Positions 20,444 to 61,967 of a DNA stretch of 64,000 nt are shown piece by piece; the stretch's first letter is position 1; each line of letters begins with the position of its first letter. The DNA comes from Paracyclopina nana (lineage: Eukaryota; Arthropoda; Copepoda; Cyclopoida; Cyclopettidae). The DNA lies in the NCBI GenBank assembly GCA_019096065.1, contig JAGUCH010000001.1, positions 14,446,001 through 14,510,000 on the forward strand, read 5' to 3'. The position numbers were made by a program, and so were the translations under genes. The notes under the pieces were generated by a model, which searched no databases, was not told the origin of the DNA, and was given only the letters and a program-made list of their open reading frames with translations.

Positions 20444-20503
20444 GTACGTCGTCAACCACGGATTTTCTGGCCGTTTTCTGAAGAATGACTACAATTCTTC
20501 GCC
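20444..20503 (+). other. Probable 5' UTR part of the first coding exon, with overlapping uORF
   Basis: A pyrimidine-rich tract ending TTGCAG at 20443 is a good 3' splice site 60 bases before the start codon, so the exon probably begins at 20444. The first six bases of this exon, GTACGT, themselves make a donor-like sequence. An upstream ATG at 20485 (A at -3) opens a nine-codon ORF ending at 20514, overlapping the main start in another frame. An in-frame TGA at 20486 rules out an N-terminal extension within this exon. Confidence 0.7.
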
Positions 20504-26651: not shown

Positions 26652-29600
26652 ATGCTCCCAGTAATGAAGGCCAGCCTTCATCCTCGTCCAGGCAAGCTGA
26701 AGAAGGCGGCGAGAAGGCCGAGGAGAGGGAGGAGAAGCAGGCCACGCCCTGTCCCTTGTGCCAAGAGCCCTACACCGAGTACTCGGAGCTCGAAAGTCAT
26801 GTCATGCAGATCCACTCGGTGAACAGCGAAGGCCTCCAAAGGCTGCTCGTGCTCATGGAAGGCTCGCACTGGTTGAACAACAACCGGTCCAGCAATAGGA
26901 ACAACGTGTCCAACAACAACTCGGACTGCGGCTCGCCCACCACCACCACCAACCACAATGATGACAACGACCAGGACGAGGGCAGGAAGAGCACCGACGA
27001 TGCCCCCACCTCGACCACGAGTGAAACGCCCCTGGGCACCATCTCCGAGAAGCACGTGTACAAGTACCGATGCGCCCAGTGCAGCTTGGCCTTCAAAACG
27101 GCCGAGAAGCTGGCCTTACACTCGCAATACCACGTGATCAGGGACAGCACCAAGTGCAGGCTTTGCTCCAGGAGCTTCCGCTCAGTCCAGGCCCTGTTGA
27201 AGCACGTGGAATCCAGCCATAACGAAGTGCCATCCGAGGAGCTGGCCCACTACAAGTTGGGCCTGATGAACCACCCTCTTTTGATGGCGGGCTTGTCGGG
27301 CCAGATCCTGGACCCCTCCACCAACGAGCTGTTGAGGAAAGAAACCTCTGAGATTGACGAGTCTGAGGACTCGAATGATGTAGGTGAAAGCAGTGCTTCC
27401 AAGAAGTCGTCTTTGATGCAGCAGTCGTCGTTCATGAGGAAATCGGACAAGGGGTTGACGTATCCCTTGGAAAAGTACTTGGACCCCAACAGGCCCTACA
27501 AGTGTGATGTCTGCAAGGAGTCGTTCACGCAAAAGAACATCCTCCTCGTGCACTACAACAGTGTCAGCCATTTGCATCGACTGAAGAAATCGATGCAGGA
27601 CCAGAACAAGACCACAACGGACCCAGCGGCGACGACCCCAGAAAAGAGCCCGCCCAGAATCACGAGCCTGGAAACGGCCCTCAACAACTTGGCCAACGCG
27701 AAGCAGTTCAGGGATGACGACGCAGACAAACCGTACAAATGCAACATTTGCAAGGTCAGCTACAACCAAGGGTCCACCCTGGACATCCACATAAGGTCAG
27801 TGCTCCACCAGACGCGAGCCTCCAAATTGCAGGAGCTCGCCCTCACCGGCCAGATTGATCTGAGCAAGCCTCTCATAGAGCAGCCTGACTCGAAACAGCT
27901 CCAAGAGCAGCACAAGAAGATCCTCCAGGAAATGTTGAGCCCCAAGAGTAGCTTCAATTCTTCAAGCAGTAGTAGTTCGAATCCAGCCATGTCTCCACCC
28001 ACCACCAGCTCACCCAGTAGCACCCCAGCTTTACTCAACCTGCAACAAGCCCTGCTAAATAATGCCAAGCAGCAGAATTTGCCCCCAACTTCCATAGCGG
28101 AACTTTTGAGCAACTTCTCTGACCAGAATCAGCAACAGCAGTTATTGCAGCAGTTCCTCACCTCACTTGGAGGAGCTGCTGGTGCCAATAACGAGAGCAG
28201 CAACAACGGGAATAATGAGGACCAATTGAAGAGTTTGCAGCAGTCCTTGTTGGCCGAGGGAAGGAAGTCTTCACAGGCTGTCAAGAATCTGCTCGAAAAT
28301 TATGGCTTTGAAATGGTGATGCAGTTTAACGAATACCACCAGAGGAAGAGGAGGGATGAGGAAGAAAGGCTCAAGAAAGAGGCCATGGAGACGGCAGCCG
28401 CTGCAGCCTCCAACTCTTCAGCGGCAGAGACCACCAATCAGGCCGGAGGGGACAACCACGATCAGGAAGAAACAAGAAGTGAGCACCACAACCAAGAACA
28501 AGCCTCTTTTGACAATGAAAAGCCCAATAATGAGGTGGAAGCTGATGAGGACATGAAGCCACCAGAAATAATCAAGTCCAAGTGTCCTGCTTGCAGCAAA
28601 GAGTTTTCCAGCATCTGGGTACTCAAGGCTCACAGTGAGGAGGTCCATAGGGACGTCGTGCCGCAAGACTTTCTAGAACGGTACATCAAAGAGCTGAAGA
28701 ACAACCTCGACAAGTCAACCTCTGAGGATGATCACCAGTCATTAAGTAGCAGCCCTATTAAGAGGCCACCTTCCCACCAGGCCTCCACATTTTTGACACC
28801 TGAAAAATCATCTGAGGATGAGAGGCCCAACTTTCCCGAGACATCCACACCCAAGAGTAGGAGCTCTACACCAGCTGTCGAGTCCACTGATGGCCAGTCC
28901 ACCTCGAAGCCCATTTCTTCAATGCCGAAGGAGCTCAACTTGTCTGATTTCTCCTCCAACTTTCAAAAAGCCATGCTCTCAGCCCAGCAGCAATCGCAGT
29001 CGATCAATCCAATGCTGCTGCAAATGGCCCAACTGCAAGGCATGAACCCACTTGTAGCCATGAATTTGCACCCACCTCTCATACCTCCCTCCATGATGGG
29101 GAACAGCAACAGTAATAACAATGGGCAAAATGGCCTTCCCTCACATCTCATGAAGCCTCCTACATCTGACAGCTCAGGCATGGATGCAGCCCAAATACAG
29201 CTCATGATGAAGTTGGGCATTGATCCCAAGATGCTCGCCCAGAGTGGCCTGGATCCCAAGTTCCTCTTTCAAATGAGCCAAATGGGTGGAGGAATGCCCA
29301 AGCTGCCTGACCCCAACTTTCTTGCATTGTTGTCTGGAGGGGGCAACTTGCCTGATAATGCTCCTGACCCTAAACTGTTCTTTCAAATGATGCAAATGGG
29401 GTTGCCCCAAGGGCCAGACCCGAAATTTCTCCTCCAATTGGCTCAAATGGGCAAAGATCCTATGTGTGGAATGGCTGGTCTAGACAAAGGATTTCCTCCA
29501 CTCCCAGGCCTTCCTGGGTTTGATGGCAGAGGCCAACCCATGGGTGATCCCAAGGGCATGATGAAGAATGCTGTTTTTCAGCAGCCTGAGCAGGCAAAAA

Positions 29601-32363
29601 GGGCCAGGACTAGGATCACTGATGACCAACTCAAAGTGCTCAGGGCCAACTTTGACATCAACAACTCCCCTTCAGAGGAGCAAATCCACAACATGGCAGC
29701 CCAGACTGGTCTACCTCCCAAGGTGATCAAGCATTGGTTCAGGAACACTCTGTTCAAGGAGAGACAGAAGAACAAAGACTCTCCTTACAACTTCAACAAT
29801 CCACCCTCTACAATGCTTAACCTGGAAGAGTATGAAAGGACTGGGGAGCCCAAGGTGACTCCTCTGAATCCTGAAGAGCAAAAGCAATATACCAATGATC
29901 ACAATGCTGCTGCGTCAACCTCCAACGAAGCCAAAGAAGAGCTGGAGGCCAAAGAAGACAAATTACCTATGCCTAGCACGAGCCAGCAGCAAGAGCTGCG
30001 AGTAAAGAACAATGAGGAGCTTCTGTGCAAAGAAAATAGCTGTTCTTCGACCTCGGCGTCACCCACTCTCCCAAGCCCTGTAATTGTTTCCACTGCTGGT
30101 ATGGAGACCTCAGCTGCCACTAGTCTTACCCTCTCCTCCATTCTTTCCTCCCAAATGGGCCAACTGTCTAGTGGCATGAAACCTGGCAGCTTTTTGCCTC
30201 ACCCTCTAGTACCGTTCTCCACTGCAAATGCAATGAGTGGCCGGTTGCCTGATTTCCTCAACCCTCTTGCAAATATGATGGCCAATGAACAGCCTCAGAG
30301 GCAGAGGTCACCCACACCCCAGAGCCAGCAGTCTTCAGGCTCAGGTGGCCACCAAGGCAAGAGGGCTAATCGAACCAGGTTCACTGATTACCAGATCAAG
30401 GTTCTCCAGGAGTTCTTTGAGAACAATGCCTACCCCAAAGATGATGATCTCGAGTATCTCTCCAAGCTGCTCAGCCTGAGCCCTAGGGTGATAGTTGTGT
30501 GGTTTCAAAATGCTAGGCAAAAGGCAAGAAAGATCTATGAGAACCAGCCACCCATTGACCCAAATGACGATGGAGCTGGTCGGTTCACCAGGACCCCTGG
30601 ACTCAATTACCAATGCAAAAAGTGCCTATTGGTGTTCCAAAGGTACTACGAGTTGATCAGACATCAAAAGCAGCACTGTTTCAAGGAAGAGGACGCCAAG
30701 AGGTCAGCCCAGGCCCAAAAAGCTGCTGCTCAGGCTGCAGCTCAATTCTCAAGCCAACAGGTTGGGGGCAATATGCCACCCTCTAGCTCTTTTGGCATGG
30801 GTAGTAGTCACCACTCTGATGACTCCAATTCAAGCACTAGTCATGACAGGGCCATTCAGTCGCCCATGTTCAACCACAATTTTCATGACAAGCGTAGGTC
30901 TTTTGATGGCTCTGACGATTGGTCGTCTGATCACCCTACCACCCCTCAGCTATCCACTCCCCAGTTTCCAGGGTTGTCCTCAGGCATGCGAATGGACGAG
31001 GAGAAGAAAATGACCCCTTCAATGTTTGACCAATTGACAAGAGAGGCCAGAGAGCACCAGGGCCTGTTCCCCAAGCTGACAGCTCCGAGTACCTTGTTTC
31101 CCTCCTATCCCCCTTCAAGCCCGTTTGGCATTCTCCAGCAGCAGGCTCTTCAGAACCAACGGGATCGAGACTCTGACGATTTTGACACGGAAAGTGTGGG
31201 CAGCTCGCCTAGCAGTGGGACGAAAAGAAAGCACTCCGAAGATGGAGTTGACATGGATGAAAAGGATGAGAGTGGCCAGCCCAGAGACAAGAGGCTGAGA
31301 ACCACAATTCTTCCAGAGCAGCTGGACTACTTGTACCAAAAGTACCAAGTGGAAAGCAACCCAAGTCGGAAGATGCTGGAGCAGATAGCCAATGAGGTGG
31401 GCCTGCGGAAAAGGGTGGTGCAGGTGTGGTTCCAAAACACCAGGGCTAGGGAGAGGAAGGGCCAGTTCAGGGCTCACCAGCAGGTGATCAACAAAAGGTG
31501 TCCCTTTTGCCCCGCCATTTTCAGGGTGAGGTCGGCCCTTGAGTCTCATTTAGCCACCAAGCATGCTGAGCACTACACGCGTGGTGAGATTGACATCGAT
31601 GCTCTCCCCGATGCTGAGGGCTTCCATGACTCGGAGAGGCCAACCTCAGCCTCCACAACGCCAACTCCAATGCCCCCATTGCCTCCTCTGGTACCCACGA
31701 CCTCAGACCAGCTGCACTCGATGCAAAAGTACTACGAGGACACGATGAAAAGGTACATGAACGACTTGCAAAATAATAGCGCCAACAACGCTGGCTCTGT
31801 TCCATCAGGAGCCTCACCCTCTACCAATGATGACCAGCAGCATCCCTCTTCAGCTCTTGGTGATTCTAATGTGAGTACTACAGTTGTTGCTGAGTATCAA
31901 CCAACACAAGCTTCTTCTTCTACCTCGCTACTATTCTCTTCAGCAACCTCAGGGCACTTTGGTGGGCCAACAGTCCTAGAATCGTCATCTTCCAAACGTT
32001 TTCGCACCCAAATGTCCACAGTCCAGCTCAAGATGATCAAGAGTATCTTCCAATGGTACAAGACCCCCACAATGACCCACTGTGCCACCTTGGGACAGGC
32101 CCTAGGGCTCTCCAAGAGAGTCATTCAAGTGTGGTTTCAAAATGCCAGGGCTAAGGACAAAAAGGCCAGACAACTTGCAGGGGTGGAAGACACTCCTCCG
32201 CGTACTTTGTCTGTCTGCCCAATCTGCCATTGTGACACTCCGAGCATCCAGGGACACTTGTTCAGTTCTGAGCATTTGATCAAGACCAGACATGCCATTG
32301 AAAGAGGCCTCTTTGAGCCATCCTCACCTGGGGAATTAGCGTTCCCAACTACAACTTCAGCAG
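26652..32363 (+). CDS. zfh2: ZFHX3/4 (zfh2)-like transcription factor, coding exon 2 (residues 982-2885) with four homeodomains
   Basis: This 5712-base exon follows a pyrimidine-rich acceptor (TTCGTTTGCAG) and joins the exon ending at 23447 in phase, creating an unbroken finger (CPLC at residue 1015). Further C2H2 fingers begin near Cys1122, 1150, 1266, 1345, 1626, 2303, 2598 and 2837. Homeodomains begin near residues 1964, 2218, 2528 and 2763. Their recognition helices contain WFRNTLFK, WFQNARQK, WFQNTRARE and WFQNARAKD; Asn51 is present in all four. HD1 has Arg at position 50 and is followed by KNKDSPYNFNNPP, as I recall from ZFHX3. Q/N/S-rich linkers and a DPKFL-type repeat (about residues 1837-1920) separate domains. 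The exon ends CAG|GTAAGA at 32363 in phase 1, so a further C-terminal segment must come from downstream or from read-through. Role: sequence-specific regulator of neural and appendage development by family analogy. Confidence 0.95.
29594..29773 (+). other. zfh2: Homeodomain 1 coding segment (residues ~1963-2022)
   Basis: A homeodomain of about 60 residues with an Arg-rich N-terminal arm (KRARTRI) and helix 3 containing KVIKHWFRNTLFKERQ. Trp48, Phe49 and Asn51 are present and position 50 is Arg rather than the common Gln. The family's first homeodomain shows the same feature, as I recall it, so this looks ancestral rather than degenerate. Confidence 0.93.
30359..30538 (+). other. zfh2: Homeodomain 2 coding segment (residues ~2218-2277)
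   Basis: Arm KRANRTRF and helix 3 RVIVVWFQNARQKARK give a complete homeodomain with Gln50 and Asn51. A C2H2 finger (first Cys at residue 2303) follows about 25 residues later, the finger-after-homeodomain arrangement seen in this family. Confidence 0.94.
31289..31468 (+). other. zfh2: Homeodomain 3 coding segment (residues ~2528-2587)
   Basis: Arm KRLRTTIL and helix 3 RVVQVWFQNTRARERK give a complete homeodomain with Gln50 and Asn51. A C2H2 finger (RCPFC, first Cys at 2598) follows closely. An acidic stretch (VDMDEKDESGQ) precedes it. Confidence 0.94.
31994..32173 (+). other. zfh2: Homeodomain 4 coding segment (residues ~2763-2822)
   Basis: Arm KRFRTQM and helix 3 RVIQVWFQNARAKDKK give a complete homeodomain with Gln50 and Asn51. 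It is followed by a finger-like CPICHC...H segment at about 2837. A fourth homeodomain matches vertebrate ZFHX3/ZFHX4, whereas Drosophila zfh2 is usually described with three. Confidence 0.93.
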
Positions 32364-32510
32364 GTAAGACCTCTAAGCAATCATTATTGTTGTCTTCGAC
32401 TTCTTATAGAATGAAAATTGTGGGGGGTTCTCACATCGATATAAGCAATGATAGTACAGCATGAGGCTCCGAAACTGCACACAGCGGGCTGCTCTGAAGT
32501 AGTAAATAAA
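32364..32510 (+). other. zfh2: Possible read-through terminal exon (alternative C-terminus plus poly(A) signal)
   Basis: If the donor at 32364 is not used, the frame stays open for 33 more residues (starting GKTSKQSLLL) to a TGA at 32462-32464, giving a 2918-residue protein. An AATAAA lies at 32505-32510, 40 bases after the stop, and a T/G-rich stretch (GGTTGCGTTTTCGG) follows about 25 bases later. This is the arrangement of a composite terminal exon that competes with splicing. The donor itself is a near-consensus CAG|GTAAGA, so both outcomes are plausible. No transcript evidence is available here. Confidence 0.4.
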
Positions 32511-34816
32511 CCGGCCGAATCGGCTGTAGCGCGGTTGCGTTTTCGGCGCTTCACCCTGTAGCTTGGGGCGAAATAATTTCTCCTTCTTCGACATACTTGA
32601 TTATTACCATTGCAATCATAGTATTGCGTTGTTGGTAATGAGTTCCACTTTGCGCTGATTTCACTGCAGCCTAGGAAAAAATGAGAATTGTGGCATTTGC
32701 AAATAGGATAACTGATTGGTGTGTAGTCGCTGTTCTACAACAATAATAAATGCGATTGTCATAGTAGCAGTAGCCTTGGCATTGTTTTCTTGGCCAACAA
32801 CAGATGCAATCGTCCGCATTTATCCTCTTATGCCAGGCAAAGACTATTATGAGCATATGTGGGACTAGGACGACAATGATGATCAGGATAATAATAAGAT
32901 GCGCTCCTCATCACACGGGGATATGCGTCAAGTTCTCTATTATATCAGGGATATTGCTTACCAGAAAGTAATAATGCAATGTCAGACAGCAGCAGCATAT
33001 AATATAAACCTAGCATTATATCAATAGTCTTTCCATAATCACCTAGCTCTCAGTTGGTTCTTCGATGATGCTAAGATACTATGAATAGCTGCTACCAGTA
33101 TGCATATCCATGGTTAATCAGACCCGGTATGGCATCAAAGCATTACTCCAAGTTGTAGTGGCATAGAGCTCTGGGTTTCTGGTTTTCAATCCACCCAGTT
33201 TAAATGGATGGTGAGCCAGAAGCTGGGGCAACCAAGTATTTTTGAAGGAAAATTGATGGTGACCACACACTCTTTTTTAACACGTGATGGGAAACTGGCA
33301 AAAAATGTCTCGTTTTTTTATTGAGAGAGGCCTAAACTGGCACTTTCCCCCTTATAGTCCTCGTATTTGTACAGCTCTCTTCTTTACCCAAATGGAAATT
33401 GTGAGAATTGAAAAATGACCACTTTTGAGGCAGCACACACGATCATCTATCTTTTATAGTGATGCTCTACTAGTGAAAGAGTTGCCAGAAGTGTTGCGGA
33501 CAATTTGATACCACTTAATGGAGAATAAACAGCAGCACAGCAGCACATTTTTGTTTCTCTATCATCATTTGTGTGTGAACTGGAGCTCTGGAAATTATGG
33601 GGGTCAAATTTGCCAGTTCCTTTTGCTTGAACTAAACTCTCGAGATGTTTGATTGATGTGATAATGAGAGACTACTTGTGTGTCACACCGCAAAAAAGCC
33701 TGTTTCCCAGTTGTAGCCACGGTGCTAAATCTTGGCTTTTTTTCACTCATTTCCAAATGTAAACAGGAAATTTCATCACAAACTAAAATGGATAGCTCCA
33801 AATTGTAGCCTGCACCACATTTTACTGATGAGAGATCAAAACCTGGCCATTCATCCTGGAATAATTGGGATCGGCACTTTAAAAGCACGCAACGTCACGC
33901 AAAGGCTTTCTCGAAACCTTTCAAAACATCAAAATATTTTTCGTGAACAAAAGGACTTTTCGAATTCTGTGAGAACAACCGTTATTATTATGTGATTATT
34001 TTCGAGATTTTGAGCATCCTCGAATTTTCGGAGGAACAAAAGGTACAAATGAAGACAATGGGAGCGTTTGACCGGCATGCTGCTGAGGTTGTTTTTTACA
34101 TCCAATCGGCCGTGTAATGAATGCGTTCCTGATGGAGAGATAAACATCGTCGTCGAATTGGTTCCCCAACTTACAAACGAGCTACAAAAAATGTGACGAA
34201 AGCGAACCTCAAAGACAAGTAATTTATTTCAAACTTTATCTTTGGACCTAAAGCTATAAGCACAACCGCAAAAAAGTCCACTCCTCATTATCTCGTTTCT
34301 GTCTTTTTTCGTCTTTTTACAGCTTGTGTGGGTCTCTGTCACGAGTTCAAATCTCGGGATTTTTTTCAAAGCACTTGCTGCCAAAGGGGGCTGAGAATTG
34401 AGATCGACTCACTCGTTTGTAGACCTAAATTACCGGCTCCAATCTTCGATTGGGCTAGCTGCATTTTGATGTCGCAGGGCAAAAAGGTCAAGATTTATGA
34501 GCGTCTAATTTTAATGCTCAAGATTTCTCGCGCGCGTTCAATTTACATATAAATTAATGGTTAATCGGACTTTTATATCCCATTGGCACGAGATATCTTG
34601 AGGCTTAATATGGATCGACGAAAGAAAAAATATCTCCGCGTTCGCAGCACAGTGTGTGCTGCCCATTAATTCCAATCATGGATATCTAGAGGGATTTCTC
34701 TGGCCAAAATGGATGATGCACTAAAAACGAATCTTGCTTTGCATTCAAATGAGATCGAAAATCAGGGATTCCAATTCTGAAATAGTGACGAAAAGTGGGT
34801 AGCAAAAAATTACTCT
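32511..34816. other. Non-coding stretch downstream of coding exon 2
   Basis: No supported gene. AT-rich sequence, probably the start of a long 3' intron or, if the AATAAA at 32505 is used, intergenic. Short frames on both strands have no recognisable content. Confidence 0.5.
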
Positions 34817-34961
34817 GGCTTATTATCTTCCGCGTCTTTGATCGTAGCATGGTTGCGGTTGTTATCGCTTCTTATTTACTGACATCGCAACCTCGTCAGT
34901 AAATAAGAACCGATAACAACCGCAACCACGTTACGATCAAAGACGCGGAAGATAATGAGCC
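34817..34961. repeat. 145-base near-perfect hairpin (67-base arms)
   Basis: The left arm 34817-34883 and right arm 34895-34961 are inverted copies with four mismatches in 67 positions and an 11-base loop. The trinucleotide TCT directly flanks both ends (34814-34816 and 34962-34964), a possible target-site duplication. The arms share TATCTTCCGCGTCTTTGAT and GGTTGCGGTTGTTATCG. It may be a young foldback/MITE element, or an inverted duplication that would give long double-stranded RNA if transcribed. The arms are too long for an ordinary animal pre-miRNA. Confidence 0.85.
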
Positions 34962-35856
34962 TCTATCATGACATGGCACCTTTTTTGCAGCAAAAGAGCT
35001 TTTACGTTAATTAAAAAAAAGTTTTTTGCCAAATCACGCTCGCTGTAACCAGTAATTTTGGTTTTGAGGAAGTGTCATAACGAGTCATGGTGTTTAAAAG
35101 TCATTTGGATATCCCTTATTTGCATAAGCCCTTTCATGGCCTCAAGGTAATTACAAGTTTTCCTTTTTTGAGCAGGAGAAATTCCTGAATTTGCTATCTT
35201 ATCTGCGATTCCGTTAGGCTTTTGGTTTCACGGTATTTTTTGGTCTTGGGCTAATTTGCAACTTCTGGTCATTAGCTAGGAATTTTTCCTTGGTCAGATC
35301 ATTCGTCTTTTTCTGGTCAGAGCATCAGCTCCAGCAGCATTCATTCATTAAGCCCAGAATTTTCTCTTTCCAAAGTTTTTTTAACCAAAAAATTCCTTTC
35401 GCCTTGTCAGATCTTGTAGCTACAACAAAGTTGATGATGGCTTCGGATTTCTCTCTCATTTACAGCATGGACATTAGAGCACACTGGTCAGGTTAAAAAA
35501 TTGATAATTATCTAAACATACCCCAAATGATGCTTGTAATTGGTTGATTTTTAAAGTGGTTTTATGTTGGCTAGCCACGAGGAATTCCTCGAGAGGTTTA
35601 CTTAGGCAAAATTGTCTCTCATTATCCCCAGTGTGGATTCAATGCGTCTCCGTGGTCCATTAGCTAAACCAAACAAGAATTTTGGAAAAATCGTGACTCA
35701 AATTCATTAGACGGCAGAAGGAACAACATCTGGGGATCCTTCTTGTTACTAGCATGAAATCCAACCTGAAATCAATATTACTATTAGCTGAGACGGCTGA
35801 GCAGTACATAAGCTCCGACCTTATAATTTCCATGATCCTCTTTGACTCGGAGGATG

Positions 35857-35898
35857 ATAATGAACATTATCCATCTACAAGTGGATAATGATCATTAT
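35857..35898. repeat. Small imperfect inverted repeat
   Basis: ATAATGAACATTATCCA (35857-35873) is mirrored by TGGATAATGATCATTAT (35882-35898) across a short loop, with one mismatch. It lies just outside the 3' end of the tRNA-like element and may mark an older insertion. Confidence 0.6.
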
Positions 35899-35939
35899 AT
35901 CTCAATTTATAGGTGCGCCATCTATCTTATTTATATATC

Positions 35940-36030
35940 AATGAAAAAAAGGAAGGAGGCGGCAGTAAGAATCGAACCCCGGTCACCCGGGTAGCGCGCC
36001 GACGCTCTACCTCTGAGCCATCAAATTGGT
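35940..36030 (-). mobile_element. tRNA-derived element (SINE head or tRNA pseudogene)
   Basis: Read on the minus strand, an A box (TGGCTCAGAGGT, 36009-36020) and a B box (GGTTCGATTC, 35969-35978) lie at normal Pol III spacing. A T7 terminator (35944-35950) follows a short distance downstream. The D stem pairs (GCTC/GAGC), but the anticodon stem is imperfect, position 33 is C instead of U, and neither T stem nor acceptor stem pairs. It is therefore not a working tRNA. It may extend upstream to about 36240, where GC-rich unique-looking sequence continues. Without other copies I cannot define its ends. Confidence 0.6.
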
Positions 36031-36344
36031 TATGAAAATTACATAGGAGCAAGCAATTAAAAATCATGGCCAAACGGGCCGGCACGGCATGGTCACAAGA
36101 CGCAACAGGTGCATGTTGAAGGCTAGACTGCTGGGTCAGCTTAGATGAGCTCACGCTTGCTGTGTGCAGCGGCCACTAGCTAGCCCGGCCGGTGCCAGCT
36201 CGACCGCTCGGTCAACTTTGATGAGCTGTCTGCAATAAAGCGAACCCCAAAATTTAAGGCATATCTTGCAAAAAAGAGCAAGAAAAGGACTTCTTAATTG
36301 ACTTTCAGATATTGCTTGAAATGCTGGGGGTAGCTAATAGTAAT

Positions 36345-36492
36345 AGGATTATACACCTCTAGGCTGTCGGATAACACTCATTATTTTTTAGTGTCGCGTG
36401 CCAATCACTCGTTCGCTCCGCTCACTCGTGATCTGTCACTTGACACTAAAAAATAATTCGTGTTATCCTCCAGCCTAGAGGTGTATAATCCT
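36345..36492. mobile_element. Foldback/MITE-like element with 51-base inverted arms
   Basis: Arms 36345-36395 and 36442-36492 are inverted copies with few mismatches, beginning AGGATTATACACCTCTAGGC. The 46-base interior contains a second short stem (ATCAC...GTGAT) around TCGTTCGCTCCGCTCACTCG, a CGCTCCGCTC-type core that I associate with foldback elements of other invertebrates. AT-rich TAATA/TATTA sequence flanks both sides. No coding capacity, so non-autonomous. Confidence 0.75.
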
Positions 36493-38540
36493 ATATTATT
36501 TCCGAATAATTGTTCTCATCTCACGACACATGACGTCGTCGTATCGGTCGGGTTTTTTACAAAGAGGGACCCCATATTGAGATACGAGATGGAAAAAACA
36601 CACAACACCTGGAAGATTTCCCAGATTTTACTTGGGGAAGGAAAAAAACCACTGCACTGCTATGTAAAGCTACAAATTGCTCCGCTGTCAAAATCAGCAT
36701 TTCAAATCAATCGCCTGTGATCTTGATTTTCTGGCTAAGGCAAAATTGCTTTTCTAATGAGTTTCCAATGCTAGCTCCAATTTCACGATTAGATTGCTCG
36801 ACTCTCTTAAAACAGCCAGGGGTAAATCTTAGGGTTTTTTTCAGATACAATTTGCCCTCTTGAACCCTAGGTGCAGTTGCTTTTTGGAAATCCTAGTCCA
36901 CAGTAAGCAAAGAGTGTACATTGCTGGTGGGTGCAAAAAAAGTTTCCAATAATAAATCAAACATAAAAGACTTTAGCAGCTCGGCTAGAGCCTGGCCCTG
37001 ATGGAAACCTCAGATGCTGGTGGAGAGTGCCAAGAAAGCAAAGTTTTTAAGTGAATTTGCCCTTTTCTCAATTGCAAACAAAGAAGGAAAGAAGCTTTCT
37101 TTCTTCTCTGCAGCATGATTAGCCAAGCTGGGTTGTTGGAGGCTGTTTGAAAGCAGCCTCAGCCTCTAATGGCTGCTAGAAAAGACTGCAGCAGCAGCAG
37201 CTTTCTGAAGCAGCTAAATGAGAGGAGGGGCCTGTTTCAAAGGAGACAGCTTCTGCTTTGGGGGGCTTCTTCATTAGAACACCACAAAAGCTTTCACAGC
37301 TTCTTCTAAAGAGCCTCATTTCAGAGCACACACCACCACTGCTCCTCCTTTCCCTAATGGCAAACTCATGTAGCAGTCATATTTTTTAAGTCATTGTAGA
37401 ACGGCTGCTCTTGGCACTAGGGGGAGCAGAACTGCCAGGAAGCCCTAATGATCCCACCAGCTCGTGTGTGTATGGAGGTAGCTCCTCTCATCATCCTTTC
37501 AGATTTGCTTTTTCTCCCTTGCCATTTCGTCGGCTACTTTTTGAAAAAGCACGCTGTTTTTGGGTGGGCTCTTCTTTGTGGTCTGAGTGTGGTCCTTTCA
37601 CAGCTCTTGCAGATGCATTGTGATGCTAAATGTATCCACTTCCTGCTCATCTTCCCCCAATTGTTCTGCACACACAACAATCAAAGATGTACATTCATCG
37701 AGCATGGCGACCTCGTGTCACACAGACCGGAAGCAGTCAACTAGCTTTGTTTACACATTTCGCGTGGTTTGACGAAACAATTATTTCAACAACAAATCTC
37801 CTCTGCGCGATGACCACTCGGCTGTCAATTACTTTGCATGATTACTCATCAAACAGTTGACGTGGGGGGCCGACAGACAGCATATACTGGATAAATAACA
37901 ATGATTCACAAATATGCTGCTGGGAAAATATCGAATATGTGTGTGACTCTTTGAGCCCCAAGAAGAAGGAGAAGAGAGGCTGCACGTTATAAGCTAGAAT
38001 TTTTAATTTCCTTTCGACTTCCTTCTTCGCTGCTTGGGCTACTGGAATGAAAAGTAAACATATTATTACATTGCGCCGTGCCTCGACTCTAGTCTTGTGT
38101 GAAATGTGTCTTTGGTGGATGATGTCTGCATTCCTACCTGGATTAATTACCTAGACTTACCTGCGAGTACGAGAGCTGTGCAGTACCACCCTGATGGTCA
38201 TAATGAGGGGAGGACCTGAGTCTAGGATTACCATCTTTGTTAAGTCCTCCTCTCCTGTTAGCCTGAGCTCAAGACCTGCCTCAACTAATCTGTTTTCGTC
38301 CCCAATTTCGGGATAGAGTCTTCACTTCTCAGAGTAGAGTGACCCACTAGAAAAATTTGCCTATAAACCTCTTCATAAGGCTCGCAAATGGTGCCAGTTG
38401 ACTGCATGATTTATTTGTGGCAAACTCACATAAATTCTTGCTTGCTTTTCTAACTCGTCGCTACCCTGATAGTGAAGGCATTTCAGAGCTGTGTAGAAGT
38501 CTGCGCAAACATTAAATTTTTCTGTTTTTCTGGTCTCCAG
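36493..38540. other. Non-coding stretch, probable intronic
   Basis: No supported gene. GC is slightly higher at 37.1-37.7 kb, with GCAGCAGCAGCAGC near 37190, but frames there show no domain. An acceptor-like CTCTTGCAG at 37613 would lead to a stop after three codons in the required phase. The block ends in the strong pyrimidine tract at 38540. Confidence 0.45.
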
Positions 38541-38546
38541 GTAAGC
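38517..38546 (+). promoter_or_regulatory. zfh2: Candidate recursive splice site (acceptor fused to donor)
   Basis: A long T/C tract runs directly into GTCTCCAG|GTAAGC with the junction at 38540|38541. A 3' splice site is immediately followed by a consensus 5' splice site, which defines a zero-length recursive splice point. After joining to the exon ending at 32363 (...GCAG), it would regenerate GCAG|GTAAGC. It lies 6.2 kb into the putative intron. If used as an ordinary terminal exon instead, it would add a short tail ending at a TAG near 38598. Confidence 0.5.
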
Positions 38547-41500
38547 TCGCGTTTTCCCTTGGTTGCATTTTACATTGTATTGAGCAGGTCCCGAAATAGG
38601 AGTGAGTCAGATTAATCACCCTCAATACATGTCAAGCCGGCCATATCGAAACCTGTGAGCTGTTGGTCCGTCGTCGTTCCCATATCGCGCCGCGCTCATC
38701 ATTTTCTGCGTTGGAATCACTAGTAAAGTTGGCCAGAGATGAACACAACAATAGCTTTTTGTATTTAGCAGGGAATTCCAGATGGGAACCAAGCCAATCA
38801 AACATTGACACTCTTCTTTTGAGGTGCCACTGGTAGATTTACTAATACAATGCCTGGGGTATGGAATTTACATCGACTGGGGAAAACAGGGAAACTTGGC
38901 AGAGTAAGGCAAAAGTTGGAATTGGATAAAGCACTTGGAAATTACTTCCAATTGAAATGAATGTAAAAAAAGCTTTGAAGATGGGAAATCTGAGCTCCGT
39001 TGGAATGACCATTCCAATCATGTACCTGGATTAGACCCAATTGCCAACTGTTGATAACAATTAGGCGTCCCTGGATTGCATACCAGGGCTCATTGTTGTA
39101 TTTTAGGCGCGAGTATAGCTGCAGTGAACGGTACAATCAAAATGTGCTGATCCATTAAGAAGTCCAAGGTGTGTGACAATCATAATGGGCACCAGCGTAT
39201 TTTGACCAAAACTTTCACAAATATTGTGCGTGTTGACACCAATGTGCAAACCAGCGAGTACAGGGTGTCCCACCAACTCTCTTTAATGGCTCTTGAGCCA
39301 CCCTCCCATCAAGCAGAAAAATCTCAAGTGCCATTGGTGTAACAATGAACAGACATTTTTCTCTCACACACCCAGATTTGTACAGCAATTATTCACTTAT
39401 GGACAATTTACTGCTGTAGCTGCTAAAGCAATTACCAAATTGCATGCAGCTTTGACTCATTCATGACAGCTGAATATTTTGGCCTAAACAAATTGAAAAG
39501 TTTCACCCAAAGCTGGCAGAACTCTCTTGATCAGCTGACATCGCACTTATTTCCCCCGTGCTTGCTTCCAAAAGCACCAAGAGGTGTAGTTCTTGATTAA
39601 TATTTTTCTTTGATGCATTGCTTGCCATGGCAGGAAAATTCCTAAGCTGGCATCTTGAAAGCTGATGTTAAAACGCCCACTCATTCACATTGTTCATTTT
39701 GAGCACACTGTGGGAAATCAGCCCTTGAAAAGGTCCCATCACCCGCTGCAATCTGATATTTGCCAAGTAAACATAATTATCATTCAAAGTACTCCTCTTG
39801 AAGTTTTTCCTCGTGATGGCTGAAAAAACTCGCATTAATTGAAGAAATAGAAAAAAGGACCGAGTTTAATTGGAGTCTTTCGGTCTTCCTTATATGGAGT
39901 GCAAAGCCCAAATGGGATTAATCCAATGTTGTCGAGATACCAATCAAGAATTGTGCTCATTTGCGGGAGGATCAGCAGCGAGGGATCTGGAGTGTGTAGT
40001 AATAGTGTGTACTTGACCACTCGATGAGGTTGTAATTAATGCAATTACAGTCGTTTTTCTGGCTATTCCAAGATGGGGGATCGAACGTTGTGAAGGGACT
40101 TAAGTGGATCTCAATCCAATCTCCTTGCTTCATCACGTCGTCGTCTGATGAGTCTCTCAAATGGAACTGATGTTTGGTGAGCTCCACTAGATACCCTCAT
40201 TGCTCCTGAAGATCCACTGAGACTCATCAATTTGCTTTTTCCCTGTCAGCACCATATCAGAAGCATTTTTTGAAAACCTCCTCTGAAATTGGGAGCAGCA
40301 AAAAAGCTGCCAGTGTGGTGTCCCTTCTTTTTTAAAGCCATGGCTGGCCAAATGACCTGGCTGGTTGGGTTTTATTTAGGTCGTAAAGTAGATCATGGCG
40401 CTCTTCTGCCCCCTGCCTGAAATTGAATAAAAGTCCACTGACGAGATGAACTGTCGAGATTTCATTAGACTGATGAGAAGAGATTTCGATTTGTTGTAAT
40501 CCCTCGTGATTGGTTTTTATGTTGGTCGTGAAAGGTGCGAGTAGCAGGATTCCCTTATAAAGGACCCTTAATGGGGAAGTTGGCTGGCCAAATGCTTAAT
40601 CGTCTCTCTTGGTGCCAGAGAGTATAGAATGTGGGTAGGGGAAATGTCAAGAGGTTTGTTTGTCCCCCATTAGAAGTTGACCGAATCGAGCTTGACCACT
40701 AATTGATACGAGTGGACTCTGATCATCTCTCGTCTTTCTTTAGTGAACCAAAACCATTATCTTCATTAAGATAAATGCACCATGTCCCATCTGCTGATAG
40801 ACAGCTCTGAACACATGAATCAAGTGAGTTCCTTGGCAGTGTGCGTATTTTTGCCCTGGAATTTCGCAAAATGAAGAAAGTGGCGGAAGTGGTGATTTAA
40901 ATAGATTACCAGAATTCTTGCAGGGATCTATAGTTGCTCCACTAATTTTGTGCTCAATTGTTGAGCTGCTCACAGTTGGGGTTGACTCCTTTGGAGACAG
41001 GCTGTCTGGGATGGCAAAAATTTTACAACTTGCGCACCTGTGTTGTAGTTTTTCTCCTCCTAAAAGGGAGTTTTCCAAAAGGTTTGACCGTAAATTGTTC
41101 GTTAGCCTTCTAATGACCGATGGCGGAACGACCAGCCCGGATTTTCGGTGAATTTCATTGTCCACCAAAACCACCTCTTCGTATACTACTGCTATTCTTG
41201 ACGGAATTAATGATGTCCAATTTTTTTCCACGACAGTCATCGTTTACTTGATTGTTTTCCTTTGAGCTCTAATAAAAATAACGTTTTTTCTCTCTTCTTG
41301 TCCTCGTCGTCGTGATGAGCTGAAAAAACTGGTTTTCGCCGTCGTCGTCTCAACTCTAATTTTGATGAGCAGGTTGAAGGGTCAGCTCAGCAGCGAGATG
41401 TCGATTAGCAATAGCAGAAATAGCACGGCAATTTCATCTCTCCTGCTGGCTTACAATTAAATTAGCATTTAAAACTCTGGAGAAATTCCAATCTAGTTTC

Positions 41501-44500
41501 TACATTCATTAGCCCCCACAACGTACCTGCTATGAAAATGAAAAATGATCAATGTGATTTTGTGATGTTGTGCTATCTGAAAATTAAACTTCTTTTCACA
41601 CAAATTAAATGGATGGCAGCAAGTTTTTCGAATTCCTCTGGTGATCAGGAATGTCCAAATACTAGTCGGTGTTCTCACCTCCTAACACAGGGATGTACTC
41701 CCACTGAGCATGGATCCCAGGGTGCCCAATCCAGGGGGTAATAAGGCAAATGTGCCAAGAAGAACCATTTCATTTTATACAGTTGTATGCTCTACACGCG
41801 AGACTATATGGAACTATGGAATTTGAGGTCAAAGCTAAAAATTCCCAATTTTTTGGCCCCTCACATCAAGAAGGAGCCATGTCCAAAAAATTTCGGCCAA
41901 CTGAGACACTTCTTTTGGGGCTCAAATTAGCATAATGAAACAAACTGCACTTTGTCAAATGCTTATCGGGCAGAGGACCATTTTGAGTTGCGCGCTGTGA
42001 AAGTGAATGGAAAACTAGGCTTAATTGCGGGCAGGCAGAATGCTGAGGATTTTTTCACCGGCTCCTCAGAGTGCACACGTGAAATATTGATAAATTATGG
42101 TTTCAACCATAGATAGCTGGTTAATTACCATTTTGAGGTCCGGTCCGCAGATATTCGGACTTGAGCAGTCTTGTGTGATGGTCCGGTTTTTCGGCTGCAT
42201 TCCAATGCTTTGGCCCCCTACTGTTTCTCGTTTCACGAGGTGGACCTATGTGCTCGATTTAGGGAGACCTCAGCCAACTAAGGAAATAGTACTGAATGTG
42301 TACCAATGTGAGCCACACTACTATCATATCATCCTCTCAATTGTGCAGCAGCTTGCTCAGTGGTAGGCCATAAAAAGTCTGAGATACTGAGTTTGAAAAA
42401 GGAAAGAATAAATGCTCGTTTTATTGGAAGCTGATTTAATAGGTGCCCATTTTTTGCTGCTTTAATTGAAGCCCAGTGTGTGCACTGTAAATGGAAGTAT
42501 GAGATCTTTAGTACTACGGCAAACCCCTGCAGGTATTTATGTAGGAATCGTCAGATCTGTTATCTAACGAAAATTTTATTCAGACAAGTAGAAGGAGCAT
42601 GGTGAATTGATGACTTCAAAATTAGATTGGAATCGTGAACTTGATTGTAAAATCTGATCAGAAGCCAATAAAATAAGCCAAAAATTAACAGTGGGGGGAA
42701 AAGCGTGGGGAAAAATCTCCCCTCCTCGCAGTAGCTCAGTTTTGTGTGCTCTTTTGTTTACTTGCGAGTAAACCGCGGGAAAATCTAAATGATTTGTATT
42801 TATCTGCAGAATAGGCAAAAATAATGAGTCCTTGGGACCATTTTTTCCCCCAACTGAATAATGCTCAGATATTTTTTGTCTGAACTGCCATTGTCCACAA
42901 ACGGTTGGCATATAGGGACATTCTCATCGTAGCAATCATTATCTTTTCTTCTGAAGCTCCCACTGCTATATAGCCACTCCTACGTTTCTCAACTTATACC
43001 ACAAAAGATCTGGCACACTGGGGGCATCTCAAATATACCCTTTTTGCCGTCGCTGAAGATTGCTGTGGCATTTTTGCTGGTTTATATGCGCTGCGTGGTG
43101 TTCATCAATGGCTAGGCCTTAATGCCATTAGTAAATGCCAAGTCTATAGGCCAAATCATTTGTCATTCCTAAAACAGAACAACTAGTGCATCTTCATTAA
43201 CCGAGCTGGAAAAGCAGCTTCCAAAAAAGTCAATCAGGTTTTTTTGCTGTTAATGCTAATGCTGCTGCTTCTGTCAGACATTTCATGGCTGACATTTGAT
43301 AGGTTATGCAAAAAAGAGGCTAGAGAATCTCATGCATTTTTAATGACGCAACTTGTCATTAAAGGAAGTGGTAATAATGAAAAAAAAGTTTGGAAATGTC
43401 AACCCTTCTTTGAAATGTCAAACATGGCCGGCCACCTTGCTGGCTGCTCTTGCAAACTTCTTTAAATTGATGTGGCCACTGAAGCATAGTGCTTTCTCTG
43501 ATAGAAAGCCCAACTTGATGGTGACCACCAGGCGAAAAATTGGAAATTTCAAGAGTCGCATATTGGTAGTATCAGCTAGCTTGCTACTCTACTTTTGCTG
43601 AGAAATGAGACTTTCCCCAAAATAGGCATATACTAAGAAGTTCTCTCGGCTACCTTCTCAAGAGGAACAAATTGGATATTACTAGTGCACCAAGCCAGTC
43701 ACATTTTCCACCACACAACTTTTTTTATCCTCCAAAGCTGCGGTACGAACTACTGAGCAAAATGACCAAAGACGCAGTCTTTTTAAATAATGAAACTTGC
43801 TGCTAATTGTGCTTACAGGCTTCCTTTATCTCTCTATTCGTAAGCTGTCTAAAGAACGAGAAAGAAGCCCATTTAGTTAATGAAAAAAGGGGAAGAAGGA
43901 GGGCCAATTTGTGCACGAAGACGACGCGCCTCACTTTCATCTTGCTGAAAATTGATCAAAAGGTGGAATACATTTGTGGAAAAAAGGGGGAAGAGATGAA
44001 TGAAGTTGACATCGCATCTTTGATCCCTTTCTCTTTTCTGGACACACAACACAATATTGGACAAATTGTCGTGAAAATTATGGTGTCAGCAGCTTACTCC
44101 TAAAGTGTATTACCTTTTTTGCCATCTCCTTGCCTAGCTCTCTCTTGTTGTGTCCATCTTTTGAGATGAAAAAAAGGCTGGCCAATATTGCTAAGTTGAA
44201 GGAGCGCTCTCTTGAGATATGTACATCATAGCTGGCTTTCTTGTTGGACTTGAGTCAGGATGGATGCAACTCCCAAGGGACTCTTACCATTGTAACGTTA
44301 ATATAAAATGTCCAGCTGGACCCTGCTAGATAAAAATGAGACTCCTTCAAGGGGAAATGACGTTAATTTGTGCCTGCAGCCCCACTAGACTCGCCTCTCT
44401 CTCTACCTTCCTTCTTCTGCCTTTTTACTTGGCTTTCATATCCAGAAACAAGCATCTGGTGTCATGTTTTATGTCCTCAATCTGAGAGCCTGCCTCGTGA

Positions 44501-44502
44501 GA
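38547..44502. other. Non-coding stretch, probable intronic
   Basis: AT-rich with no supported exon on the + strand. The longest frame is 166 codons on the minus strand (40740-41240), described separately. A CAG|GTAAGT donor-like site exists on the minus strand near 38161 without a convincing exon. Confidence 0.45.
40740..41240 (-). CDS. Unrecognised 166-codon open frame
   Basis: The longest open frame outside the zfh-like exons and their shadows. Its composition is protein-like, including a CASCKIF segment, and it lacks the AT-driven Phe/Ile/Asn/Lys excess of nearby frames. I recognise no family, see no signal peptide or membrane segment, and find no clear promoter or poly(A) signal. By rough calculation one frame of this length is expected by chance in a window of this size and base composition. 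It could be a decayed gene, an exon of an antisense gene, or chance. Confidence 0.12.
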   Translation of the reverse strand: MTVVEKNWTSLIPSRIAVVYEEVVLVDNEIHRKSGLVVPPSVIRRLTNNLRSNLLENSLLGGEKLQHRCASCKIFAIPDSLSPKESTPTVSSSTIEHKISGATIDPCKNSGNLFKSPLPPLSSFCEIPGQKYAHCQGTHLIHVFRAVYQQMGHGAFILMKIMVLVH

Positions 44503-44901
44503 TATAAGGTGGATCCCACAACATTAGGCAGCTAAGCTTAAGCAAAGCAAGGTAACTTTGATTGCATATTTCTCAGCAACTTCTCATCTGATTCGAACCA
44601 AAATTGGAAGGATTCATCAGAGTTGCCTTATAATTGTTGCTGTCAAATTTAGTGCAAATCCGAGGCTGCTAAGTGGTACCCAATTTCCCTTTGCTTAACC
44701 CAGCTTTGCTTTGCTTAAAACCAATCTTTTGAATGTGACCTCGGATTTGGACTGAATTAGGCATGAACAATTATAAGGCAACTCTGATGAATCCTACCAA
44801 TTTTGGTTCGAATCAGTTGAGAGGTTGCTGAGAAATTCGCAATCAAAGTTACTTTGCCTTTGCTTAAGCTTAGCTGCCTAATGTTGTGGGATCCACCTAT
44901 A
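44503..44901. mobile_element. 399-base foldback element with 163-base inverted arms
   Basis: Arms 44503-44665 and 44739-44901 are inverted copies of roughly 87-90% identity by eye. They begin AGGTGGATCCCACAACATT and include GATTCATCAGAGTTGCC and AATCCGAGG near the inner ends. The 73-base centre contains repeated TTTGCTT units in inverted relation to AAGCAAAG in the arms. ATA directly flanks both ends, a possible short target duplication. No coding capacity; consistent with a non-autonomous DNA transposon (MITE). Confidence 0.8.
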
Positions 44902-45890
44902 TGCTAGAAACTGCACTGAAGAAGAGCCTTTTCTCTCATTAGGATCGCCAATTTCTTTCGTTGGCAGCCAAGTAGATTCGGTTGGTCTTCTTCCCATCGT
45001 CCAACTTCCAATTAGGGAGAGAAGAGTGGCATTAAATTGGGCTGCTCTTAGAAGTTACTACTTGCTTTCCTCCCGCGAGCTGCTTTCTCGTCGTTTTCGT
45101 CCACTAACGATGAGGGAATTAATTTCTCATTCGGAGCTCGAATGAGCTCTTGATGAGGGCGTTTCTTATTAGTGGAAGCCACGCCTGAAGATGCTGGTGG
45201 TGCTCTGTAGCACCACAGCACAAGATGATGATGCACATTTTTAGAGAGAAGAAAGTCTTGACATGGCTCTTGAAGTTGATGAATAAAATGGGGAAATGGG
45301 ATTTCCTTTGATCCCCCTCAACGGAAAATTCAATTTGGCCTGACATCAATTATGAATGTCCTCAGCTTTCTACTGAAAGCACCTCTAGCTCTTCTAGTTA
45401 AACGAAGGGATAAGCAAAAGATGAGCTAGCTGCTGCCGCTGCTTTCTCCTCCACACTTTTCAAGATTATGCAAAAAGCTCTGCTCCTCTTCTCAGATTAG
45501 AACATGTTTTCTTTGCATCTCCCCCATCAGATTTGAATCAATGCATTTCCTCCTACTACTGTTGTTGCCGACGATGGACTCTCTAATGGAATTTCGCTGC
45601 ATATCTGAATTCTCCTAATGGAACACAAACATACTTCTTCTTTGTGGCAGAAGGATTTAAATGGCCTCAAAAAGGACAAACCGTTGCCGTCGTTTTTCTG
45701 GCTCTGCCTCTCGCCACAACAACAAAGCCTTTTTATCTGAAGCCAAACCGCCTAAGCGCGCGCGCGTAAGCACGCATCCATCTCTTTGGGGCATTTTTTT
45801 CGTATTGTGACATTTTTGTCTAAGCTTCTATGGCTGGTCACGCCCCCCCAAAAAGTACCAACAAGCTGAAAGTGTCGGTAGCCCTTTGTG
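44902..45890. other. Non-coding stretch
   Basis: No supported gene. AT-rich with a short CGCGCGCGCG run near 45757. Frames on both strands are short and without domains. Confidence 0.45.
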
Positions 45891-45895
45891 CCTAA

Positions 45896-45930
45896 TGTTT
45901 CTTTCATTCACTTCTATTTGCAGGTATGTT
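45896..45930 (+). promoter_or_regulatory. zfh2: Second candidate recursive splice site
   Basis: A pyrimidine tract with a branch-like CTAAT about 28 bases upstream leads into TATTTGCAG|GTATGT, junction 45923|45924. Joining it to the exon ending at 32363 regenerates GCAG|GTATGT. A second donor, AAG|GTAAGG, at 45963|45964 would define a 40-base exon; in the phase of the zfh-like frame that exon reads Gly-Met-Phe-stop. Recursive use or a short poison/terminal exon are both possible. Confidence 0.5.
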
Positions 45931-45963
45931 TTAGCTTCTTCTGCTAATGCGCCTTTTAAAAAG

Positions 45964-48900
45964 GTAAGGAAACGCGCGAGGAGGTGGAGGCGAAAGACAA
46001 ACATGAAAGAAAAGATTTTTTAGGTCAAACATAAATCTGGTGTTTTTTTGCTACCAAAGTAGAGAGCAGGGAAAAAAGAGCAGAATTGATGTTCGGTTCA
46101 TTTCCCTTCTCACCAATAGCAGCAGCAACTCTCGGGTTTCTCTCGGGTCTCACCTTCATTTATGTTTTCAGCAAAGAATCCAATTGTGGGAGCTAAATAG
46201 TAAAAAATCCCTCCTCCTTCTGCTCCTGGTCCTAGCTAATCCCAAGTCTTTCCATATAAGAGGCAGCTTGGGCCATAATTTACATTAGGCGTTTTTGAAC
46301 ATGCCACTTTTTTACACATCTGATACACAAATCTCGCCTCCTTTTTTGTACATAAAAGAACAACAGCTACCATCCAAAAGGAGCTCAGAGACACATAAAA
46401 GTTGGGAGATTTTAAAAGAACTTGGAATTTGAAGCTTCAAGTTTGCATAGTAGCAGTATAGTGGTGGGATTTAACACAAAAAGATGGGCTGGAAGGGGAT
46501 TACTATTCAAACTACTTCTTCTCACTCAGAGAAAGAGTGATGCCAATAAAAACCAAGGATTTGATGATCGTGATTCAAAAAAGCATAATAAAGCAGTACC
46601 ACTGAAAAGTGCAGTCAGCTGACATTGCACCAGTAAACAAAGGCCAGACTGGACTTTAGAATTGTGGCCATAATGCTCTGAAAAAAGCCTCATGTTTGCA
46701 ATTTCTCCCACTTTGCATTGGTCAAGCTTGATGTGCTATTCTAGAAGTCATTTGCATTCTTTCTGAGAAATCAAAGCCAATATTGGCCCCCTTTTAAGAA
46801 TGGTAACTAGAGACCTCATGTAGCAAATTATGCAGGTATTTTCTTTTCTTGAGTTACGCATACACAGGTCTGCCATGCAATAATGATCACATTCAAGTGG
46901 AAAAGTGGTTTTTCTAATGAAATCTTGTTCACGATTTTCATTTCCGACTCGAACATGACATTCCATAAAATTATCTTTTCATTGATAAATTGGAAACGTA
47001 GATGAGAGAAGGAAACAAGTTTCACCAATTGGCCCCGTCAAAAAATCAGCAGCCATTTGCAATAAAGATGGAGGAAACAATTTGCTATTACCAGTGACCT
47101 TTTCATATCATCATGAGAATTATTACCTAGTAGGAAATAAATCTGAAAAAGTCGGAATTATAGGTCTTAGCCAAATAAATCCTCATTTTATAACCCCTTT
47201 GTCACATTCATCAAGCCCGGTCACATTAACGCGCTCTTAGTAGGAAATCGCCCCAATGAATGGAACTTTTACAACAACAACTTAGCTGTAAATTCGAGTT
47301 TTCATTCAATGTGACCAGGAATTTTCACATAACCGCACTCACAAAATCAACAAAACTAAGCCTCAAAAGTTTCGGTGGCCACTGAGACTAATTCACGCTC
47401 TATTTTTGGCACTTTCACTCATTTTGGGAGGATAACAAGGATGTGACACCCTTTCAGGAGGGATCCACCAAATTGAAGAAAAGTATCAAAGCTATTTTCC
47501 CCATTGATTCCAAGTTCAGATTAAAATGAGATAATAATTATTTGAATATTAGCTGTTCAAAAGGTTTCCTAAATGAAGGTTTACTTTTCTCCATGAATAA
47601 CGATGCGGATTTTTCACGCAGAACAGCCAAGGCCGGAATTTCTCGCAACAGCAGCAGCCTTTCGTTGTTATTGGTCAGCAAGAGCAAATTAGGATCAAGA
47701 AGTTGCTTTGTTATTCTGGTAATGCATGCAAGGCTGAAGACCTCCGCATTTTCTGCAGAGTTAAAATTACTGCGGCTTCTAGAGCTTCCCAGGAAAAAGC
47801 TCTTTTAAAGAAGAAGAAGAAGAAGGGAAAGCAGTTTTCTCTGGGGAGATAGCAATAATGCCTTTCATTTTCAAGGGGGTCTTCTCCTTTTTTCTTGGAC
47901 CGTGGTCCTGGTCATGTGAGAGCACAGCATGAAATGTAGGCTGTAGTTGCCGAGCGTTGTAAGAAGCGTACAGTCGCAGATGAGCCGCCCCTCCTTAATT
48001 CGCAGAGCTGATGTTTTCCCATTTTTTGGCTAAAAAACTGAGTAAGTGCCATGACTCACTTGCTGCTTCTGCTCTCATTGTTATTATTAGGGAATGAACC
48101 ATTCATTTTTTCCTTACATTTGCTGGCGATGCTGCCGCACACTGGGAAACACCAGTTTGTACAGCTCTCTCTCCCATTGAAATTCTCTACTTATGCTAAG
48201 GAGCTGGCTGCTGCTAGCTTCTTGAGAAAAAGCGAAGCTTCCGTGTAGTAATGCAAATTATTTATGCCAACATTAAAAGATAGTAGTCGCAGGAGAAGTC
48301 TAGCTTGTACCATTCAGATGCTCGTGTCCCGTCAAAGTTGTCCTCGTTGTTTTAGGCTAATTTTGCAGCGTGTAGTGGCACGGGGGAGCAAAGCATCATT
48401 TTTGAGTAAAAGCCATCGTCATCATCCCATATGATGATCATGCTGTCTGGCACAAAGGTTTTTAATAAAAGTGCCAAGCGGAATTTTCATCAAAGAGAAA
48501 GTCACGACACGAGAACGACGACAACGCGAATGACAAAATTGCAACAATTTATTATTACATGCGTGATGATTTCAGCGGGACACATTTGTTTATGAGCTTA
48601 GATTGCCCTAGCATCGTCGTCGTGACATTTCTTAAAGTCTACGTAAAATTCAGCCATTTTTCATGGCTGTTTGCATGACAAATGAAAGGAGGGCAAAAAT
48701 GGGATTTTTTTCTAGCCTCTGTGGTATATTCTGTGCAAATATTAGGCGCGCTTTAAATAAAAGTAGGACCACTTGAAACAACAAAAAATCCACTTATTTT
48801 TTTTGTCGGGGAGAACTGTATATTTGATGCTACTAAAAATGTAATGAGCTTCACGCCATTTTATACAATAATGGTCCAAGTTTTGGGTAATAACTCGCGC

Positions 48901-61894: not shown

Positions 61895-61967
61895 TGCCGC
61901 GACCCGGGATCGAACCGGGGACCTTTAGATCTTCAGTCTAACGCTCTCCCAACTGAGCTATCACGGC
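61895..61967 (-). tRNA. tRNA-Phe (GAA)
   Basis: A complete 73-base cloverleaf on the minus strand without an intron. The acceptor stem pairs throughout (one G-U at 5:68), the D stem is GCTC/GAGC, the anticodon loop CTGAAGA gives GAA, and the T loop is TTCGATC within a CCCGG/CCGGG stem. The discriminator is A73, and G34-A35-A36 suit eukaryotic PheRS. A and B boxes are intact and a TTTT terminator follows within a few bases (61888-61891 on the + strand). Identical to the gene at 62554. Confidence 0.97.

Follow-up and report, generated by a model that had tools for sequence, protein, structure and literature searches.

A candidate recursive splice point in the putative long 3' intron of a ZFHX/zfh2-like gene of the copepod Paracyclopina nana

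At position 38541 of the window that we analysed, a 64,000-nucleotide stretch of the Paracyclopina nana genome (contig 1, positions 14446001–14510000; the assembly comprises 91.95 Mb in 10 contigs), a splice acceptor directly adjoins a strong donor word. We consider this fused site to be a candidate intronic ratchet point in the putative long 3' intron of a ZFHX/zfh2-like gene, a reading that we put forward tentatively and place a little short of an even chance. Judged from its letters, 38541 appears more convincing through its genome-wide and local company than through its own pyrimidine tract. Recursive splicing as such is already known in flies and has been predicted in other invertebrates. 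Of the original prediction of a recursive splice point at this position, the fused motif, the rebuilt donor, the companion sites and a genome-wide excess of such motifs speak in its favour, whilst the acceptors at 34323 and 37114, which come first in the putative intron, speak against it.

The site reads tttttctgtttttctggtctcCAG/GTAAGC (a slash marks the cut), or over a longer stretch ...aaatttttctgtttttctggtctccag/gtaagctcg, and lies 6,177 bases from the donor at 32364. A T/C tract whose acceptor abuts a donor with no exon between them had been claimed, and this can be read directly in the letters; the regeneration of a donor was likewise borne out, as the exon end at 32363 (...acttcagcag/gtaaga at its own donor) joined to 38541 restores CAG/GTAAGC, a strong donor. 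Using generic, approximate splice matrices, 38541 scores 7.3 as an acceptor (8.5 counting the first exon base) and 7.6 as a donor. A G and a GG interrupt its tract, which looks weak against the genome-wide class described below: in the profile score the AG-donor half contributes 14.4 and the interrupted tract 4.6 bits, and CT instead of TT precedes NCAG. Fly ratchet points, according to the sections of PMC8605326 drawn on here, sit on short cryptic exons (~50 nt) that are closed by a donor. At 38541 such an exon was not found: the generic matrix gave no donor of at least 2.5 within 360 nt on the 3' side (38545–38900), a weak GGA/GTGAGT being visible at 38602, and the site is thus a poor fit to the fly requirement. 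Two other origins of the motif were set aside: a repeat, as the 600 bp around 38541 have a single match in the genome, namely themselves, and an RNA gene, as Rfam at gathering scores returned two tRNAs in the window and none other. These two tRNA matches have equal scores, are inverted with respect to each other (61895–61967, minus strand; 62554–62626, plus strand) and sit in an inverted repeat of 83 nt with 95% complementarity.

Table 1. Features of gene 1 and of its downstream region (window coordinates; a slash marks the cut; scores from generic splice matrices).
Feature	Positions	Strand	Details
First coding exon of gene 1	20444–23447	+	ATG at 20504; acceptor CAG/GTACGT fused to a donor word
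Large exon of gene 1	26652–32363	+	acceptor 26652 (9.5); four homeodomain matches, zinc fingers; ends ...CAG
Putative donor of the long 3' intron	32364–32369	+	CAG/GTAAGA, phase 1, donor score 7.2
AATAAA	32505–32510	+	41 nt past the readthrough stop at 32462–32464
Strongest plus-strand acceptor of the stretch	34323–34552	+	score 9.5; 76 codons in phase to stop
Candidate ratchet point	38517–38546	+	pyrimidine tract, CTCCAG/GTAAGC, cut 38540/38541
Candidate 40-nt recursive-splicing exon	45924–45963	+	acceptor abuts GTATGT (5.8); closed by AAG/GTAAGG at 45964 (7.3)
Acceptor fused to GC-type donor word	51069–51096	+	TTTCAG/GCAAGT, cut 51090/51091; strong acceptor
Possible alternative terminal-exon acceptor	51525–51586	+	phase-1 reading, 20 codons
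Possible alternative terminal exon	63848–63947	+	strong acceptor, 10 codons, stop, AATAAA at 63942

Gene 1, on the plus strand, is a ZFHX/zfh2-like zinc-finger homeobox gene: it encodes four homeodomain stretches together with C2H2 fingers, amongst them a ZFHX-type finger (Pfam zf-C2H2_ZFHX3, PF24056, E 2.5e-19). We placed its exon ends by means of splice-site scores. On the minus strand beyond the window (95466–88172 in window coordinates), gene 1 has a paralog, gene 2, in tail-to-tail orientation; going by the best splice sites, the 3.2-kb intron of gene 1 has a counterpart of only ~0.14 kb there. Between both ZFHX genes, and again beyond the window, we found a retroelement-like ORF of ~3,000 residues (68647–77694, minus strand). 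Comparison of the stretches downstream of the two genes by blastn yielded a single strong match, a run of 31 identical bases present both at 64670–64700 and at 77800–77830, with all remaining matches at E 0.007 or worse. As a shared exon this match was rejected: it flanks the retroelement-like ORF and sits at the edges of the compared stretches, and it probably represents the terminal repeats of that element. Inside the putative intron, 44507–44898 consists of nested inverted repeats (41-nt perfect outer arms, 122-nt inner arms at 89%) and resembles a small terminal-inverted-repeat element. A further side observation concerns LNR domains, for which the genome gives at least 38 matches when 150 of 437 initial candidates are scored; the portion of PMC8301441 consulted states that, of all metazoans, only the copepod Oithona nana shows an LNR explosion.

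The original prediction had counted five CAGGT(RAG/AYG) words on the plus strand of the window, and these are present at 2449, 20444, 32364, 38541 and 45924; the minus strand carries three (41526, 38160 and 32327). An acceptor score of at least 5.5 combined with a donor score of at least 5 is reached by only three of 33,782 AG sites (264 kb, both strands): 38541, 45924 (acceptor/donor 6.0/5.8) and 20444 (5.8/6.0), with 41526 on the minus strand a near miss. When both scores are required to be at least 5.5, the plus strand of the window holds three sites against a mean of 0.07 in its order-2 Markov versions (60 runs), and the expectation that chance would supply well below one tract-plus-donor word holds for that strand; at the looser cut of 5 for both scores, four sites stand against 0.71 expected. 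Three such words had been proposed besides the exon donor. We retained this assignment for 38541 and 45924; 20444, to judge by an acceptor of 7.5 that gene 2 shows at the corresponding position, more likely serves the first coding exon as its normal acceptor. At 45924, which reads CAG/GTATGT, a fly-type cryptic exon can be drawn thanks to the donor at 45964; its length is not a multiple of three and its in-phase reading is GMF followed by a stop. The site at 51091 is a candidate either for a ratchet point of the GC type or for the start of a terminal exon (in-phase GK, then TGA); the strict GC-type word Y10-NCAGGCAAGT occurs 5 times in 92 Mb, compared to 0 for the backwards pattern. All three sites, 38541, 45924 and 51091, lie on the strand of the gene and within 18.7 kb. 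Acceptors in general are skewed in the same direction here: between 32364 and 52000, seven plus-strand acceptors score at least 7 and none does on the minus strand, and at a cut of 6 the plus strand has 13 and the minus strand 4, where 6.1 would be expected on each (P 0.010 for the 13). Three of these 13 plus-strand acceptors start with a donor word, whereas none of the 152 found outside this interval in the 264 kb does so (p 4e-4); GCAAG was admitted to this count after 51091 had been seen (2 of 13 without it), and 20444 falls just under its acceptor cut.

As an independent measure we trained a profile on the 27 strict fused sites Y10-NCAGGTAAG found elsewhere in the genome, fetched with their flanks; 38541 does not fit the strict pattern and lies outside the training set. 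Amongst 33,778 AG sites (264 kb, both strands), 38541 ranked first (19.1), 51091 second (16.3), 45924 fourth (12.7), 20444 ninth (10.5) and 41526 fourteenth: ranks 1, 2 and 4 all fall on the plus strand in 32364–51091, an enrichment of fused sites on the strand of the gene at this single locus. In order-3 Markov versions of the plus strand of the window (60 runs), scores of at least 16 are expected 0.08 times and were observed twice, and scores of at least 12.5 are expected 0.35 times and were observed three times; the best score per run had a median of 10.7 and a top value of 21.2, above that of 38541. Within its own class 38541 is low, beating 3 of 27 leave-one-out scores.

Fused sites of this kind are over-represented across the genome as a class. 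The word Y10-NCAGGTAAG occurs at 27 sites, compared to 5 for the backwards pattern and 3 for the purine-tract version. GTAAG or GTATG follows Y10-NCAGG at 42 of 100 listed sites (101 were found) and R10-NCAGG at 5 of 58 (odds ratio 7.7, Fisher p 5e-6), whilst GTTTG, GAAAG, GAATG and GATTG are nearly equal after Y10 and R10 (53 and 47). The GTAAG sites carry the signature of real acceptors and cluster on one strand: TT precedes NCAG at 35 of 43 GTAAG sites and at 15 of 42 GAAAG sites (p 2e-5; 28 of 35 and 12 of 35 with identical words removed), and the 75 GTAAG and non-repeat GTGAG sites form nine pairs at distances of up to 50 kb, every one of them with both members on the same strand and six of them supplied by one four-site cluster on contig 9, where random placement on the nine of ten contigs with known length gives ~1.5 same-strand and ~1.5 opposite-strand pairs (P 0.0002). 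With GTAAG sites alone there are three same-strand pairs and no opposite-strand ones (P 0.014), and the GAAAG control gave no pairs in 41 sites (one of 42, overlapping another on the opposite strand, was excluded). The contig 9 cluster (positions 4399807–4447612, minus strand) places four fused words on one strand within 48 kb and is possibly a multi-step intron. Excluded from the clustering count was the repeated word TTCTTCCTTCAGGTGAG, identical across contigs, which accounts for 17 of the 49 GTGAG sites and probably belongs to a dispersed repeat carrying a fused acceptor-donor. Two further properties of the class count against a ratchet reading: just 6 of the 27 strict sites have T at +6, and the sequence 3' of GTAAG sites is only marginally less coding-like than that after GA words (p 0.047; 27 of 27 GTAAG, 10 of 15 GTATG, 24 of 43 GA-word and 0 of 15 GTT-word sites sampled), a difference that we take as weak.

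Several other explanations for 38541 have to be weighed, and two of these concern the 3' end of gene 1. The coding exon may continue beyond 32364 as far as the stop at 32464, with cleavage after the AATAAA at 32505, in which case 38541 would lie outside the gene and its fused motif would be due to chance or belong to another transcript. The C-terminus of gene 2 does read through at the matching place into a coding-like tail, and this gene appears to lack the 3' intron; moreover, amongst the candidate terminal exons of gene 1 at 51091, 51525 and 63848 none is convincing. Consistent with this, tblastn of the paralog tail over 32364–88171 gave no good plus-strand match among the matches listed, and alignment of the 51091 region with the 3' end of the paralog (score 25; random median 22, 95% 32) offered no support. 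We nevertheless regard readthrough as rather unlikely: similarity to the paralog stops at the very codon of the strong donor at 32364, a codon model trained on ZFHX genes ranks the readthrough tail lower than the 2nd percentile of coding windows, and the same-strand excess of strong acceptors extends up to 52 kb. A general codon model showed no sharp drop at 32364 (the tail gives -0.10 per codon), and the tails of gene 1 and its paralog are doubtfully related (p 0.04–0.27 across gap settings and modes). Alternatively, the 3' intron could be real and yet end early, since strong acceptors lie 5' of 38541 at 34323 and 37114, which would leave 38541 either within the 3' untranslated region or past the end of the gene. 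Both outscore it (9.5 and 8.8 compared to 7.3), AATAAA words are found at 36234 and 36951, and 34323 opens the 76-codon reading listed in Table 1; this reading, however, does not resemble coding sequence in either of two models (-0.36 and -0.14 per codon), 37114 yields one residue and then a stop, and the fused companions at 45924 and 51091 would be left unexplained, so that an early end seems very improbable to us.

The remaining two alternatives concern the motif itself. An ordinary acceptor at 38541 could open an alternative exon, terminal or internal, which begins with GTAAGC by coincidence and is kept in the mRNA, adding a 19-residue tail; the acceptor is strong enough for this, there is an in-phase reading before the stop, and 20444 suggests that a real exon of gene 1 can begin with a donor word. 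The 19 residues are not coding-like in either model (-0.44 and -0.32 per codon) and the nearest following AATAAA is ~1.9 kb away at 40426, and to such an exon we attach only a low probability. Finally, a pyrimidine tract and a donor word may simply have met in unselected DNA. The minus-strand near miss at 41526 fits such an origin, as does the backwards control for the relaxed word Y8-NCAGGTAAG, which yields 18 sites per genome against 43, and at least one of the 60 Markov runs outscored 38541; we have also counted towards chance that the window was read for such oddities, which builds in some selection. What makes pure chance quite improbable in our view is the first rank of 38541 under the independent profile, with ranks 2 and 4 on the same strand of the same 18.7 kb, and the 0.08 sites expected against two observed at a profile score of at least 16.

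If 38541 is a ratchet point, splicing of the exon end at 32363 onto the 38541 acceptor would come first and take out 6.2 kb; the junction would rebuild the strong donor CAG/GTAAGC, and this donor would then be spliced to 45924, to 51091 or to a later terminal exon, leaving nothing of 38541 in the mRNA. The use of donor 32364, the location of the terminal exon and the individual steps in the RNA are what we infer from the genomic sequence. In the passages of PMC8605326 on fly Bx, the stronger of two donors decides whether the exon is kept or skipped, with exceptions elsewhere. By this rule of donor competition 38541, having no downstream donor of at least 2.5, is predicted to be skipped, whilst at 45924 the donor at 45964 (7.3) exceeds the fused one (5.8) and the 40-nt exon is predicted to be kept, at least partly. 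A full ladder in a compact crustacean genome, in which 38541, 45924 and 51091 together remove a 3' intron of at least 18.7 kb as pieces of 6.2, 7.4 and 5.2 kb and 51091 uses a GC-type donor, would go considerably further and we consider it unlikely.

Should the ratchet reading hold, recursive splicing would be at work in a copepod with a 92-Mb genome and in an intron that falls short of the lengths described for flies, and one could then test whether arthropods have ratchet points as a common device or retain them only in very long introns. The genome-wide lists of fused sites, most notably the group of four on contig 9, provide a short list of candidates for total RNA. A limited literature search for recursive splicing in copepods returned no report, and the mentions of crustaceans, Anopheles and non-insects that it gave were judged incidental. 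RP-sites have been predicted in large introns of mosquito, honey bee, beetle and sea urchin in the part of PMC2773006 considered here, where crustaceans are not among the species named; our results resemble that work in showing a computational excess of fused sites in invertebrates, and differ in that the earlier excess was obtained for large introns relative to the complementary strand, whereas ours is genome-wide and independent of annotation. With the RS-exons of flies and mammals, 45924 has in common a donor word at its start and a stronger donor 40 nt later; unlike them, it is a candidate from sequence, its length is not a multiple of three and it reads GMF and a stop in phase. Compared to the intronic ratchet points of Drosophila (Ubx, kuz, Bx, Ten-m), the tract of 38541 is interrupted and a good downstream donor is missing, and the apparent intron spans 18.7 kb or more with segments of 5–7 kb, whilst the fly mechanism is described, in the text of PMC6110457 used here, as restricted to very long introns. 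Like these ratchet points, 38541 juxtaposes acceptor and donor in the manner of (Y)nNCAG/GTAAGT, and the locus shares with them a bias to the strand of the gene, several sites along one putative intron and a developmental regulator as host.
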